NCBI GenBank assembly: GCA_016926475.1
Contig: JAFGON010000075.1
Span: 1 to 38,777 of the forward strand
DNA: 38,777 bases
Source: a candidate division WOR-3 bacterium
GTDB taxonomy: Bacteria; SDB-A
Direction: 5' to 3'
Below, one piece after another: positions 4,422-9,931 of this stretch. The stretch's first letter is position 1. Every line of letters begins with the position of its first letter. The notes under the pieces are model-generated. The model had not been told where the DNA came from and did no database searches. It saw only the letters and a list, made by a program, of their open reading frames with translations. The position numbers were made by a program, and so were the translations under genes.

Positions 4422-4853
4422 ATGTCAAAGTATTTTTTTGAACGGGGAATAAGGTTCGAGTGTCAGAATTGCGGAGCCTGCTGCGACGTCGAAAACGGAG
4501 TGGTCTATCTTTCTGAAGAAGATATGATAAAAATTCCAAAATTTCTCGGAATTTCCCAAGATGATTTTCGGCTAAAATACACTGCCAGAGATGAAGACGG
4601 AAACAATATCATAAAAGACGGGCACCCTTCTAAATGCAGGTTTTTATTCCAAAACAAGTGTATGATATATCCAGTCAGACCTGTTCAGTGCAGAACTTAT
4701 CCTTTCTGGTCAAGCAATCTGCAGGACGAGAAAAAATTCTTTTCTCTGCCTTGCCCGGGAATAGGAAAAGGCAAAATCGTAGGGGCAGAAACCATTCAAG
4801 AGATGTTTTTGGAACACAGAGAATTTTTAGCGAAGCTTTTTGGGTTAATATGA
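4422..4853 (+). CDS. YkgJ-family cysteine cluster protein
   Basis: This 143-residue protein carries the family signature FECQNCGACCDVENG (C14, C17, C20, C21) followed by KCRF (C72), NKCMIYPVRPVQCRTYPFW (C80, C90). This layout defines the YkgJ/UPF0153 group, thought to bind zinc or an Fe-S cluster; its biochemical role is unknown. It is the first gene of a five-gene plus-strand run. Its TGA stop overlaps the ATG of the ApbE gene by four bases (ATGA at 4850), which suggests translational coupling. The pairing with a flavin transferase and a radical SAM enzyme hints at a role in metal or redox cofactor handling, but that is inference. Confidence 0.9.
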   Translation: MSKYFFERGIRFECQNCGACCDVENGVVYLSEEDMIKIPKFLGISQDDFRLKYTARDEDGNNIIKDGHPSKCRFLFQNKCMIYPVRPVQCRTYPFWSSNLQDEKKFFSLPCPGIGKGKIVGAETIQEMFLEHREFLAKLFGLI

Positions 4854-5848
4854 ATTTCAAAAAAATCATTTTTTTCGTCTCCCTCGTCGCGATTTTTTCC
4901 TGTTCAAAAAATTCCCGGGAAATTTTCAGGGAAGAGACTTCTTTTATATGCATGGACACCAAAATCAAAATCGTAGTCACCGGTCAAGACCGGGAAACTT
5001 TGAAAAACTGCCTGCAAAAGGCTTCACAAAAACTTTCTTTGTTCGACTCTCTCTTCGGACCCGAGAACAGATTTCTCATAGATTCTCCACTGGATCCGTT
5101 GTCGGTCTATCTCTGGGAAAAGTCCTGCGAAATGAACAATGCCACCGAAGGGGCTTTTGACCCAGCTCTCGGAGAAGTATCCGCGCTCTGGGGAGATTTC
5201 GACGCGGGAGACATAAAAATTCCCGACAGGTCATTGTTGGACTCGTTGATAGAAGTCAGAAAACTTTGTTTTCCTAACGTCGAAAACGGATTGTTGGTTT
5301 ATACTCAATGGATGAAACCCGACCTCGGAGGCATCGCAAAAGGTCTCGCCGTAAGGACAGCCGCTGAAATTTGCGATTCTCTTGGAGCGGAAGGGATCCT
5401 AGTCGAAGCCGGCGGAGACATCTGCGCTCTGGGTTTTCGCGAAGACAAGAAGCCATGGAAAATTGGAGTGCTGCACCCGAGAAAACCAAACGAACTCGTA
5501 GCTGTTTTATCACTAAAAAACCTTTCTGTATGCACATCCGGCGACTATGAAAGGTATGCCGTCAAAGACGGAGTTAGGTATCACCACGTTTTAAACCCTT
5601 TTACCCTGAGCCCATCGGAAGGAATCGCCAGCGCGACGGTCGTCTGTGAAAAGGCAGAGGAAGCGGACGCCTACTCGACGGCGTTCATGATTCTGCCCTT
5701 GGAAAAGAGCATGAACATAGCAAAAGAAAAAAATCTCGATATTCTATTGGCGGTTTTGTCGGACACTACACTTGAGTTTATTTGCTCTCCGGGTTTTGAA
5801 AGACACGTAATCAAATGGAACTGCCCCCACAGGGAATTCAGACCTTGA
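4850..5848 (+). CDS. apbE: ApbE-like FAD:protein FMN transferase, lipoprotein
   Basis: ApbE enzymes move FMN from FAD to a threonine or serine of target proteins, usually outside the cytoplasmic membrane. The 332-residue product begins MNFKKIIFFVSLVAIFSC, a lipoprotein-type signal with acceptor C18, although the -2 residue is a less usual Phe. Family motifs seen are EGAFDPALGEVSALWG, KPDLGGIAKGLAV, LVEAGGDICALG, CTSGDYERY, HHVLNP and EADAYSTAFMIL, the last holding metal-binding Asp/Thr positions. The normal PxTG after HHVLNP reads PFTLSPSEG, a deviation from consensus. The open frame extends upstream, but the ATG at 4850 overlaps the preceding stop and gives the signal peptide. Its 3' end overlaps the radical SAM gene by 34 bases. 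No FMN-acceptor domain is seen in the window. Confidence 0.92.
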   Translation: MNFKKIIFFVSLVAIFSCSKNSREIFREETSFICMDTKIKIVVTGQDRETLKNCLQKASQKLSLFDSLFGPENRFLIDSPLDPLSVYLWEKSCEMNNATEGAFDPALGEVSALWGDFDAGDIKIPDRSLLDSLIEVRKLCFPNVENGLLVYTQWMKPDLGGIAKGLAVRTAAEICDSLGAEGILVEAGGDICALGFREDKKPWKIGVLHPRKPNELVAVLSLKNLSVCTSGDYERYAVKDGVRYHHVLNPFTLSPSEGIASATVVCEKAEEADAYSTAFMILPLEKSMNIAKEKNLDILLAVLSDTTLEFICSPGFERHVIKWNCPHREFRP

Positions 5849-6831
5849 AAAAAGCATTGTTCTCCCAAAAAATGCCAGACGGCTCGGTCAAATGCCTTCT
5901 CTGTTTTCATGAATGTGTCATAGGAGAAAACAAAACAGGACTATGCAGAGTAAGGGGGAACGTTGGTGGAGAACTATACAACATCGGCTATGGAAAGACA
6001 ATTTCGATGTCGATAGACCCCATAGAAAAAAAACCTCTCTACCACTTCAAACCAGGTTCGGTAATTTTGTCAATAGGACCCAACGGGTGCAACCTCGACT
6101 GCCCTTACTGCCAAAATTCCGAGATCTCCCAGGAAAACGCCCAGACAATCTACCTTTCCCCGGAAAATGCCGGCAAATTGTCGAGAAAAAACGGATCTGT
6201 AGGTTTGGCTTATACGTACACGGAACCTCTGGTGTGGTATGAATACATTCTCGATGCGGGTGAGGAAGTTAAAAAAAACGGGGGTTGCAACGTAATAGTC
6301 TCCAACGGCGTCATAAATGAAGCGCCTCTTAAAAAAATCATACCCCTGATAGACGCGGCGAACATAGACTTAAAGACGTTTTCAAGTGAAAAATACAGAA
6401 AAATACTCAAGGGAGATCTCGATTCGGTGCTCAGGACAATCAGACTTCTCAAAGAAAATTCGGTTCACGTCGAAGTGACGACACTCGTCGTCACCGGATT
6501 CAACGACACCGATGACGAAATTGAAAACTCCGCTAAGTTTATTGCTTCTGTGGACCCTCGAATTCCATACCACATATCGAGATATTTTCCCCATTATAAA
6601 TACGAAGCGCCCCCGACATCCGAGGAAAAACTCGGCAGATTTTACGAGATAGCTAAAAATTATCTGTCGTTCGTTTACCTTGGGAATACCTTTCAAGCTG
6701 GTAAAAACGACACTTATTGCCCGGATTGCCTAAACCTCTGGATTGAAAGATCGTATTTCTCTGCTGACATAATCGGAATCCGGGATGGAAAATGCTCTAA
6801 GTGCGGCAGAGACACCGGGATACAGTTCTGA
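5815..6831 (+). CDS. AmmeMemoRadiSam-type radical SAM enzyme
   Basis: This 338-residue protein matches the radical SAM member of the AmmeMemoRadiSam trio (radical SAM, MEMO1-like, AMMECR1-like). It has an N-terminal CLLCFHECVIGENKTGLCRVRGN segment, DPIEKKPLYHFKPGS, then the cluster motif CX3CX2C as GCNLDCPYCQN (C92, C96, C99). Four further cysteines at the C-terminus (CPDC 302-305, CSKC 327-330) look like a zinc-ribbon. The reaction is unknown in the family; older annotation as pyruvate formate-lyase activase is misleading. MEMO1 and AMMECR1 homologues are not in the window. The ATG at 5815 lies inside apbE; a later ATG at 5872 would remove part of the N-terminal segment, so the earlier one is preferred. 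The next gene starts 5 bases after the stop. Confidence 0.92.
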   Translation: MELPPQGIQTLKKALFSQKMPDGSVKCLLCFHECVIGENKTGLCRVRGNVGGELYNIGYGKTISMSIDPIEKKPLYHFKPGSVILSIGPNGCNLDCPYCQNSEISQENAQTIYLSPENAGKLSRKNGSVGLAYTYTEPLVWYEYILDAGEEVKKNGGCNVIVSNGVINEAPLKKIIPLIDAANIDLKTFSSEKYRKILKGDLDSVLRTIRLLKENSVHVEVTTLVVTGFNDTDDEIENSAKFIASVDPRIPYHISRYFPHYKYEAPPTSEEKLGRFYEIAKNYLSFVYLGNTFQAGKNDTYCPDCLNLWIERSYFSADIIGIRDGKCSKCGRDTGIQF

Positions 6832-6836
6832 CCCAG

Positions 6837-7220
6837 ATGAAGAGCATTTTAAAATTCTATCCCTATCAGAGAGACTACTTTGTAGTCGGAATTTTTTTCG
6901 CTCTCGCCGTCATTTTAATAATCAACAAATTCAAAACGGAAGAAAAAAGCTATTACGCCGTTGTGGAAACAGCCCAGGGTGAAAATGTTTCGGTTCCCCT
7001 TTCAAAGGACACGTCTTTCTCCGTCGAGGGGAGAATCGGAAGAAGTGAAATCCAAATCGAATCCGGAAGGGCGAGAATAGCATCCTCTCCTTGCCCGAAA
7101 CAGATATGCGTGAAAAGGGGATGGATAAGCCGCACATGGGAATCTGCCACCTGTCTGCCTAACGGAGTTTGGCTTTCCATAGAAGGCGAAAAACAAGATA
7201 TTGACGCGACGACTTATTGA
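6837..7220 (+). CDS. NusG domain II-containing membrane protein (EetA-like)
   Basis: This 127-residue protein has one N-terminal membrane helix (about 14-30, YFVVGIFFALAVILIIN) and an extracytosolic domain with the NusG_II signature SSPCPKQICVKRGWISRTW plus ATCLPNGVWLSIEG (C86, C91, C106). Despite the name this is not the transcription factor NusG. An open frame extends 12 codons upstream, but the ATG at 6837, 5 bases after the radical SAM stop, gives the expected N-terminus. Such proteins are often encoded beside a Gx transporter gene, as here (1-base gap), and near apbE. I recall the same pair as EetA/EetB in Gram-positive extracellular electron-transfer loci. The biochemical role is unknown; a redox role through the cysteines is inference. 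Confidence 0.88.
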   Translation: MKSILKFYPYQRDYFVVGIFFALAVILIINKFKTEEKSYYAVVETAQGENVSVPLSKDTSFSVEGRIGRSEIQIESGRARIASSPCPKQICVKRGWISRTWESATCLPNGVWLSIEGEKQDIDATTY

Positions 7221-7221
7221 T

Positions 7222-7740
7222 ATGAAAATCGGCTTGGGAAAAATAATCGAACTCTCTGTCTTTTCTTCGTTGGTAGTCTCTCTGCATACGATAGAGAGCT
7301 TTCTCAACCCCACATTCTTTAAAATCGGACTCGGCAACGCCGTTGTTCTTTACCTGATTCTCAACAGAAGGACATCGACGGCGCTGATTACAACGCTTTT
7401 AAAAATCGCCGCTTACGGATTTTTGTCAGGTTCATTCCTAAGTCCTGTTTTTTTTGCCGTATTATTTGCATCAATTTCAAGTTTTACGTTGATGGCGGTT
7501 TTCATCCGAGTTTTAAAAACAGGACCGATAGGCGCGAGCATACCCGCGAGCTGTGCTCATAACCTGGTAATTCTTCTGTTCGCCGAAATTCTGATCAGGG
7601 GCATAACCTCTTCCCTTTTCCCCTTTGTTTTCGCGTTCAGTGTCTTAACCGGCTTTATAACCGGCTGGGCCGCTTTTATTTCTTTGAAAACTCTAAAAAA
7701 CCTTGACACAAAAAAAGATGAGTATAAAATAACTTTTTAA
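7222..7740 (+). CDS. Gx transporter family membrane protein (EetB-like)
   Basis: The 172-residue hydrophobic protein has about five membrane segments and the family pattern HTIESFLNPTFFKIGLGNAVVLYLI near the N-terminus, then GFLSGSF, SFTLMAVFIRVLKTGPIGASIPASCAHN and a final segment near FSVLTGFITGWAAF. The family is also annotated as heptaprenyl diphosphate synthase component I, but it looks like an ECF-type S-component-like membrane protein, and substrate and function are not established. The ATG at 7222 follows the NusG_II stop by one base; a TTG at 7201 in the same frame lies inside the upstream gene and is not preferred. It closes the plus-strand run, and tRNA-Ala begins three bases after the stop codon. 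Confidence 0.88.
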   Translation: MKIGLGKIIELSVFSSLVVSLHTIESFLNPTFFKIGLGNAVVLYLILNRRTSTALITTLLKIAAYGFLSGSFLSPVFFAVLFASISSFTLMAVFIRVLKTGPIGASIPASCAHNLVILLFAEILIRGITSSLFPFVFAFSVLTGFITGWAAFISLKTLKNLDTKKDEYKITF

Positions 7741-7742
7741 GT

Positions 7743-7819
7743 GGGGCTGTGGCGCAGTTGGCTAGCGCGATTGACTGGCAGTCAATAGGTCACGGGTTCG
7801 AATCCCGTCAGCTCCACCA
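7743..7819 (+). tRNA. tRNA-Ala (anticodon GGC)
   Basis: A full cloverleaf can be read: acceptor GGGGCTG (7743-7749) with CAGCTCC (7809-7815), D stem GCGC/GCGC (7752-7755, 7765-7768), anticodon stem ATTGA/TCAAT with loop CTGGCAG and anticodon GGC at 7777-7779, T stem ACGGG/CCCGT with loop TTCGAAT. The third acceptor pair is G7745-T7813, the G3:U70 pair that marks alanine tRNAs. The terminal CCA is encoded. It starts just after the Gx transporter stop and ends 28 bases before a lipoprotein gene on the same strand. Confidence 0.98.
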
Positions 7820-7847: not shown

Positions 7848-8732
7848 ATGAAGAAGTGTCTTATAATATTTCTCTCGGTTGCATTACTGTTGAGTCTTTT
7901 CTCCTGTGTCACTGAATCTGAAGCGGACGCTTCGGGTAAAATTAAAAGAGCTGACCTCGCGCTGAAGAATCTCAGGCAGTCAATGGATAAGTTTTACCAG
8001 GTCAGAGGTTACTACCCATACATCTCGGCGAATCTCGTCCCCGAAAATGCCAGTGTTGAACTGATTGTTGACGACACCGGAATATTCATAAATTCAAGGG
8101 AAAATTCAGTCGCTCTGTCGTACATCACCGACACGACTCTTTTCAACGAATCAGACGACAGCATCCTTCTGAAAAAAGACGAGTTTCTCGTGAGAAGGTG
8201 GGTTTACTACCTGAGGTCTTCGGACAGACACCTGATTATAGACACACTGAACGCGTCATTGAATTTTGGAGAAAACGAAAGCCTCGGAGCTGTTTTACGC
8301 GTTAAAGACACGAATTTCATCATCGCTGTCCGCGACGGAACTTCTGAAATGCCTTATCACATATACGAAGTTACACCTTCGAATCTTCTGGCGGTGAAAG
8401 ACAGCGGGTTGATTTCATTCGTGAAAGGCGAATACACGCTTTCTTTTGAGAGTTATTCGTATGCGCAAAACAACGAGACGAACAGTTTATGGCTTTTTGA
8501 CACTTTGGCTTTGATCGAAGACTCCACAACTCTTAGGGAGATAAAAGAAGCCATCGCTCTTGAGGATTTTATCTACGAAACTTCCGACCCTTTCAGAAAG
8601 TATTTTATTGCGGCTCACGCCACCGATAGAAACAACACTCCTGTCACCACGAGAAAAGTCGCCAAAGCTTCTTACGATTACTCCATGGAAAACATTCAGG
8701 CTATAGATCCTGTAGAATACAGCAGTGAATAG
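7848..8732 (+). CDS. Lipoprotein with pseudopilin-like N-terminal segment, function unknown
   Basis: I do not recognise the family as a whole. The 294-residue product starts MKKCLIIFLSVALLLSLFSC, a lipoprotein signal with acceptor C20. Residues about 30-65 (KIKRADLALKNLRQSMDKFYQVRGYYPY) resemble the stalk-to-globular junction of type II secretion pseudopilins, where a helix leads to an xYxxxxGxYP pattern; it lacks the type IV prepilin leader, so it would be lipid-anchored. The rest is beta-rich with many acidic residues and no catalytic motif. GGAGGT at 7839-7844 sits 3 bases before the ATG. It is the first gene of a plus-strand cluster with a TPR lipoprotein, a single-pass membrane protein and an Omp85-like gene, which suggests an envelope role. 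Confidence 0.7.
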   Translation: MKKCLIIFLSVALLLSLFSCVTESEADASGKIKRADLALKNLRQSMDKFYQVRGYYPYISANLVPENASVELIVDDTGIFINSRENSVALSYITDTTLFNESDDSILLKKDEFLVRRWVYYLRSSDRHLIIDTLNASLNFGENESLGAVLRVKDTNFIIAVRDGTSEMPYHIYEVTPSNLLAVKDSGLISFVKGEYTLSFESYSYAQNNETNSLWLFDTLALIEDSTTLREIKEAIALEDFIYETSDPFRKYFIAAHATDRNNTPVTTRKVAKASYDYSMENIQAIDPVEYSSE

Positions 8733-8776
8733 ACTTAATTCAAGGCAGAATTTGCATGAATAGATTTGGAGGGATA

Positions 8777-9931
8777 ATGTTTGGAATATTTAAAAAAGCG
8801 GGATTTTTGCCGATATTGATGTTTCTCGTCATGACCTGCCAGACCACCGGTCAGGTTCTAAACGGGGAAGACAATTCACTCGCAAGCGATGAATACGGAT
8901 GCAAAAAATTCTACAACCTCGCGATAAACTACCAGAGGAGCAGGTTGTGGATGGAGGCGGTCGAATTTTACGAAAAAGCCATCGCTTGTTCTTCAGACTA
9001 CACCGAAGCTTACGTCGGACTCGGGAACCTCTATGAAGAGATAGATTCCACCGAAGCCGCTCTTTCGGTTTGGCAGAATATGATGACGACTTTCCCGGAC
9101 AGAATAGAACCCTACATCGAATACGCAGGGTATCTGAGTGATCAGGAAAATTTCGTCGAAGCCGAGGAAATGTATAAAACAGCCTATTCAATAGATTCAA
9201 CGAATTCTACGGCGATACTCGGTCTGGCTGATATTCTCACAAAGCAGGACAAATTTGACGAAGCCCTGCCGTATTTGGAAAGAGCGATTGATTTCACTGA
9301 AGATTCCGCTGTTCTGCTCGCTCTCAAACAGAGAATGGCGAAATGCTATGTCGGAATAGGTTGTCCCGATAAAGCTTCGAGCCTTCTCGAGGAGATTTTA
9401 ATCGCTTATCCGGACAGGATTGAAATTCACGCGTGGTTAGCGGAAGCCTACCAGGGAATGCGCGAATACGACAAAGCCATCCAGCACATGGAAATCCTGA
9501 TAGAGAGCGATTCATCTTTGCAGAGGTTGATGGAATACGGCTCTCTTCTCGCGGTCGCCGGAAGGACATCCGAAGCCATAGCCATCTTCAGAAGGGCTAT
9601 CGGAAGCGGAGGCGGTCTGTCGGCTTATAAAAAAGTGATAAGCCTTCTAAACAGCTCCGGTCAGACTTCCATGGCAATGCAGTTCGCCCAGGAAGCCCTC
9701 TCTTCTTATCCAACCGACAGCTACCTGAACGTTTTGGTCGGCACAAAATACCAAGCCGCGGCCGTAGACGCGTGGAACAACCAGAACTGGGACGAATGCA
9801 TAGCCAACTGTGATATAGCAATTTCATATTTCTCAAACGCTACATCCGGCTCATACGTCTCCCAGGCTCAGCAGAAACTCGCTAATGTACAACAGTTGAG
9901 AGAAGCCGCAAGGCTCAAGAAGATATACTGA
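8777..9931 (+). CDS. TPR-repeat lipoprotein
   Basis: The 384-residue product has a probable lipoprotein signal MFGIFKKAGFLPILMFLVMTC (acceptor C21, with an imperfect lipobox) and then a solenoid of roughly eight to nine tetratricopeptide repeats, for example YQRSRLWMEAVEFYEKAIAC, TEAYVGLGNLYEEIDSTEAA, NFVEAEEMYKTAYSID, KFDEALPYLERAIDF and MREYDKAIQHMEILI. TPR proteins are scaffolds for protein contacts. An ATG at 8756 in the same frame would add seven residues, but GGAGGG at 8768-8773 points to the ATG at 8777. It lies 44 bases after the preceding lipoprotein gene and 2 bases before the next gene. In context it may assist outer-membrane assembly in the manner of BamD-like TPR lipoproteins, but that is inference from neighbours only. 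Confidence 0.85.
   Translation: MFGIFKKAGFLPILMFLVMTCQTTGQVLNGEDNSLASDEYGCKKFYNLAINYQRSRLWMEAVEFYEKAIACSSDYTEAYVGLGNLYEEIDSTEAALSVWQNMMTTFPDRIEPYIEYAGYLSDQENFVEAEEMYKTAYSIDSTNSTAILGLADILTKQDKFDEALPYLERAIDFTEDSAVLLALKQRMAKCYVGIGCPDKASSLLEEILIAYPDRIEIHAWLAEAYQGMREYDKAIQHMEILIESDSSLQRLMEYGSLLAVAGRTSEAIAIFRRAIGSGGGLSAYKKVISLLNSSGQTSMAMQFAQEALSSYPTDSYLNVLVGTKYQAAAVDAWNNQNWDECIANCDIAISYFSNATSGSYVSQAQQKLANVQQLREAARLKKIY

Follow-up and report, generated by a model that had tools for sequence, protein, structure and literature searches.

What does a radical S-adenosylmethionine (rSAM) enzyme do in the middle of a set of genes that probably serve the handling of flavins? The question is raised by the window analysed here, the 38,777 nucleotides of contig JAFGON010000075.1 from a candidate division WOR-3 bacterium, which carries on its plus strand a run of five genes at 4422-7740. 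These genes encode successively a CxxCxxCC protein, ApbE, an rSAM enzyme of the AmmeMemoRadiSam family, NusG_II and Gx, the last two being EetA and EetB. A profile search placed each of the five families above its curated cut-off. The run is read here, at a probability of roughly 0.6, as a flavin-trafficking and flavinylation operon, with RnfG and a second FMN_bind protein as acceptors in trans and with the rSAM as a functional, recurrent member. The original prediction of a flavinylation or electron-transfer unit of the EetA-EetB-ApbE type is borne out by the family matches, the conserved gene order and the acceptors found in the genome; the genes are not scattered among relatives, nor is an exported acceptor of flavin mononucleotide (FMN) lacking.

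The rSAM is a recurrent, non-random part of the EetA-EetB-ApbE module. The neighbourhoods of PF07009 matches in 386 genomes were fetched and searched with profiles, which gave 99 NusG_II loci; a gene lying within 2.5 kb of NusG_II on the same strand was counted as linked. Gx accompanies NusG_II in 63 of these loci, ApbE in 47 and the rSAM in 29, the last spread over 16 families. Since contig ends cut some loci, 29 is a lower bound; by a rough estimate made without regard to phylogeny, random placement would give about 0.2. In another scan, one in which organisms were named, 9 of 80 loci showed the linkage; they belong to WOR-3, Thermotogota, Deferribacterota, Spirochaetota and Cloacimonadota. 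The whole five-gene order, as anticipated, is conserved in relatives. Two genomes of the window's genus (G001 and G002) have it with identical flanking genes, namely a HAD hydrolase, glutamate dehydrogenase and enolase on one side and a lipoprotein and a tetratricopeptide repeat (TPR) protein on the other, and a short contig of a further member of the family (G003) holds the five genes and two downstream genes in the order of the window. Because it is kept in all three genomes, this order is not due to chance. The set had been described as gaining two metallo-cysteine proteins, which holds for the rSAM as a recurrent member. The CxxCxxCC gene adjoins the module, among the sampled loci, solely in the window's own family; it is therefore merely a local neighbour, and its candidacy as a general part of the module was rejected.

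The rSAM (5815-6831, 338 aa) matches TIGR04337 with 268 bits against a cut-off of 220, as well as PF04055, and possesses the motif CNLDCPYC, an N-terminal Cys motif and C-terminal CPDC/CSKC Cys pairs. Among the top candidates scored, it is the only TIGR04337 match detected in its genome. To our knowledge, no function has been established for the AmmeMemoRadiSam proteins, relatives of human MEMO1 and AMMECR1 that range from archaea to humans. All three families of the system are present in the window's genome above their curated cut-offs. The three-gene clustering is absent there: the rSAM lies on contig C75, and Memo (C10:2977-3780, TIGR04336, 233 bits) and AMMECR1 (C10:3846-4343, TIGR04335, 185 bits) stand side by side on contig C10. 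Ahead of the latter two genes, potassium uptake genes resembling those of TrkH and TrkA and a gene for a response regulator were identified by eye in this genome (L218:823-4361, on C10) and in G001. AMMECR1 is found directly ahead of rSAM-ApbE in three loci (L033, L133 and L046). A single TIGR04337 match occurs in 17 of the 29 genomes with an rSAM-bearing module, 15 of which also encode Memo and AMMECR1; other module genomes have two rSAM copies, the second being located in several of them beside a Memo-AMMECR1 fusion.

A tree was built from 38 module rSAMs and 18 rSAMs away from the module, the latter being second copies or coming from genomes with an unlinked module. All 18 off-module enzymes fall on one side and 34 of the 38 module enzymes on the other, the window rSAM belonging to this lower-scoring, module-type side. 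The exceptions are L125 and three members of family f14, which joins the canonical side on a starred branch. The split and the position of f14 therefore indicate that the module-type rSAM is old and that an rSAM was recruited independently at least once more, in f14. A single origin of the link between rSAM and module is not supported by the tree and was rejected. The module side also holds rSAMs of Bacillota, most of which adjoin Memo-AMMECR1 genes, so the module sub-type has not left the AmmeMemo system. These data bear on a doubtful but serious alternative, in which an ordinary EetAB-ApbE flavinylation cluster is accompanied by an rSAM that merely shares its promoter and performs AmmeMemo work unrelated to flavins. 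It would account for the fact that most TIGR04337 rSAMs lie away from EetA and ApbE, many beside Memo-AMMECR1, and that the Bacillota members on the module side adjoin Memo-AMMECR1, with neither EetA nor ApbE in the flanking sequence that was fetched. However, the linkage spans 16 families, involves close or overlapping genes and includes at least one further recruitment, and hitch-hiking is not expected to recur so often.

ApbE transfers FMN from flavin adenine dinucleotide (FAD) onto the Thr of a [S/T]GAT motif. The window ApbE, an FAD:protein FMN transferase (4850-5848, 332 aa, PF02424, 200 bits), starts with a secretion and probable lipoprotein signal (..AIFSC), and the conserved metal-site residues near its C-terminus, D273 and T277, are invariant in the alignment. 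Judged by its sequence, the enzyme combines the family match, metal site and export signal of an ApbE flavin transferase. One ApbE, one NusG_II and one Gx were detected in the genome. The exported FMN acceptors with a target motif, which were to be sought in the genome, number two: RnfG (L040:7832-8422, contig C40) with DAISGATIS, and a 174-aa FMN_bind protein with a secretion signal (L041:6449-6973, contig C18) with DAVTGATIS. The earlier statement that an acceptor lipoprotein and an NADH dehydrogenase are lacking is thus correct at the locus; an acceptor is not missing, being supplied in trans. RnfG belongs to a full Rnf complex, encoded by rnfC-D-G-E-A on C40 and rnfB on C5 (L219:3410-4219); this separate rnfB is located upstream of an lgt-looking gene for a prolipoprotein diacylglyceryl transferase. 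The C18 protein has a single domain and adjoins a TPR gene, and its counterparts in G001, G002 and G003 stand beside a similar gene. The only ApbE of the genome must therefore serve both acceptors, and by analogy RnfG and the C18 protein would be loaded with FMN by it in trans. An FMN_bind protein is present in all 29 genomes carrying an rSAM-bearing module. In locus L125 (G210), rSAM-ApbE-EetA-EetB lies directly downstream of rnfE-A-B (and cutA), and in L158 (G341) a menA-like gene, ApbE and the rSAM are preceded by rnfG and rnfE. In view of the single ApbE, the acceptors in trans and these two loci, the operon is read as a flavin supply and loading kit with Rnf as its main client, in which the rSAM would participate.

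The same evidence makes it quite improbable that the run belongs to a variant chain of flavin-based extracellular electron transfer (EET) to outside acceptors. Such a chain is suggested by EetA, EetB and ApbE, which are EET genes in Listeria, by the FMN_bind protein found besides RnfG, and by the menA-like gene adjoining the module in L158. Against it stand the full Rnf complex, a housekeeping client for ApbE, and the make-up of the second FMN_bind protein, which has a single domain and is encoded next to a TPR gene. Neither an NADH dehydrogenase nor a quinone gene nor a PplA-type acceptor lipoprotein was found near the run; elsewhere in the genome, the search covered FMN_bind proteins alone. 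The analogy to Gram-positive EET loci proposed earlier was therefore not upheld: nothing EET-specific was found, and among published settings the nearest is flavinylation tied to Rnf no less than to EET.

EetB (7222-7740, PF07456, 58.9 bits, cut-off 30) is divergent, its 59 bits being among the lowest PF07456 scores of the sample, and its structure was predicted for this reason. The model is a six-helix membrane protein with a mean predicted local distance difference test (pLDDT) score of 80. Compared with the PDB, its best eleven matches are all S components of energy-coupling factor (ECF) transporters, with RibU of T. maritima (5kc0) in first place (TM-score 0.69, probability 1.00, E-value 0.038). 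The probabilities of the eleven matches range from 0.98 to 1.00; their E-values, at 0.04 to 0.2, are weak, which is no surprise for helical membrane proteins of small size. The window EetB is thus predicted to fold most like RibU and the other S components of ECF transporters. In Listeria, EetB is the S component of an ECF-type FAD exporter; it binds FAD, and PplA is not flavinylated properly without it (PMC9973259). By analogy, the window EetB would export FAD. In sequence and in predicted structure, EetA (6837-7220, PF07009, 85 bits) has a single membrane helix at its N-terminus and a DUF1312/NusG_II domain in which a Cys triad (C-x4-C ... C-x-P-N) is invariant. Genes for DUF4321 and Maf proteins often continue the module behind EetB (L028, L128, L130 and L044).

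The following mechanism is proposed. EetB, with EetA beside it, would carry FAD across the cytoplasmic membrane to its outer face, where the exported ApbE would split it and attach FMN to the Thr of [S/T]GAT in exported proteins. These proteins would come from elsewhere in the genome, namely RnfG of the Rnf ion pump and the second secreted FMN_bind protein. The rSAM, of an AmmeMemoRadiSam sub-type, would act in the cytoplasm on something that export and flavinylation or Rnf require, most likely in concert with Memo and AMMECR1, whose genes lie on another contig. That it modifies something in the flavinylation pathway is speculative, and the leading guess for its substrate is a protein of this pathway, EetA with its Cys triad first. 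The wider proposal is tentative: AmmeMemoRadiSam may act partly in flavin export and extracytosolic flavinylation, the module rSAM modifying a protein or flavin of the EetA-EetB-ApbE-Rnf pathway.

Several observations weigh against an operon with FAD export and a functional rSAM. The TIGR04337 rSAM occurs in 268 of the 386 genomes, far more widely than the module, and 70 of the 99 NusG_II loci have no rSAM nearby. The module rSAM is also present in two genomes (G003 and G105) that gave no match to Memo or AMMECR1. On the export side, the EetBs of the window's family are, one fragment aside, the group with the weakest PF07456 matches. No ECF-T (CbiQ) match was obtained in the four genomes of this family (G000-G003), and no ECF ATPase above the cut-off in the window's genome (G000), so that the published ECF-type exporter cannot be assembled there. 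An eetA deletion in Listeria had no phenotype (PMC9973259). A signature of rSAM modification in EetA was also sought by comparing 37 rSAM-linked with 70 unlinked NusG_II sequences, and was rejected for want of a clear specific site. Just three columns (window residues) lean towards the linked group, W (62 vs 31%), D (70 vs 36%) and R (78 vs 49%), a lean that kinship could explain.

The EetA comparison also concerns an unlikely alternative, namely direct modification by the rSAM of a module protein that has yet to leave the cytoplasm, most probably EetA at its Cys triad, or ApbE. The Cys triad is conserved in 100% of EetAs with a linked rSAM vs 97-99% of those without. Nevertheless, the rSAM adjoins EetA, with no ApbE or EetB detected nearby, in six loci (L050, L057, L066 and L080 of Cloacimonadota, and L136 and L153), and peptide-processing systems include rSAMs akin to those of Memo-Ammecr1 (PMC7159879).

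In three genomes of the window's genus (L041:9203-10282 on G000:C18, L223 and L224), a fused, degenerate double ATP-binding cassette ATPase was noticed in the vicinity of pdxS-pdxT and of the gene for the second FMN_bind protein. Its best match is ECF_ATPase_2, far below the cut-off; it is a candidate energiser of EetB in a family with no detected ECF-T.

The flavinylation operon with its rSAM is compactly organized, and the overlaps and gaps first noted were all confirmed. The run begins with the small cysteine protein of the YkgJ type (CxxCxxCC, 4422-4853, 143 aa, PF03692, 49 bits, cut-off 23), whose stop codon overlaps the ApbE start by 4 bases (ATGA). ApbE and the rSAM overlap by 34 bases, given an rSAM start at ATG 5815; TTG 5845 is an alternative start, and both congeners show a comparable 31-base overlap. 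Gaps of 5 bases and 1 base separate the rSAM from NusG_II and NusG_II from Gx. Judging by this arrangement, the five genes are probably co-transcribed and form a translationally coupled operon. Promoter and terminator scans gave results at or near chance and were set aside. A tRNA-Ala(GGC) gene (7743-7819) starts 2 bases past the Gx stop codon. Farther downstream come a lipoprotein-like protein with no Pfam match (7848-8732) and the TPR protein (8756-9931), both of which are kept next to the run in each of the family's four genomes.

Since EetA-EetB-ApbE clusters, also with Rnf, are published, this part of the module is known; the addition made here is the recurrent AmmeMemoRadiSam rSAM, which appears to be undescribed in the open literature. 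The searched parts of PMC9973259 and PMC8238504 do not mention an rSAM. The open literature searched, which mostly leaves aside subscription journals, contains no paper joining AmmeMemoRadiSam or radical SAM with ApbE or flavinylation. With this linkage, the AmmeMemoRadiSam proteins gain a first pathway context that is concrete and can be tested, and the rSAM is a candidate for a step lacking so far in the export of FAD or in EetA maturation. The genomes whose sole detected rSAM of the family stands in the operon make a clean genetic test possible.

Compared with known systems, the window shares ApbE, EetA and EetB with the EET locus of Listeria monocytogenes, which comprises fmnB/apbE, pplA, ndh2, dmkA/B, eetA, eetB and fmnA. 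The match of its EetB model to RibU-type S components has a published parallel in the EetB of Listeria (PMC9973259). In contrast to Listeria, the run has no PplA, Ndh2, DmkA/B or FmnA; instead, it contains the rSAM and CxxCxxCC genes, and its acceptors are encoded in trans. PMC9973259 counts eetB with eetA in 3,328 genomes and with apbE in 2,169, and places EetAB-ApbE clusters beside Rnf in 572 genomes of Clostridia; the system types are treated in PMC8238504. Judged by the former paper, an EetAB-ApbE cluster in a diderm or with a link to Rnf is no novelty in itself, so that the variant system in a diderm suggested earlier is not new on that ground. The window resembles these Rnf-side clusters in having EetA, EetB and ApbE serve RnfG, and the L125 module is likewise placed directly beside Rnf genes; it differs in that the Rnf genes of its genome lie on other contigs (C40 and C5). 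With regard to the AmmeMemoRadiSam system (TIGR04335 for A, TIGR04336 for B and TIGR04337 for the rSAM), all three members are present, the rSAM being located in the flavinylation operon, away from Memo-AMMECR1.

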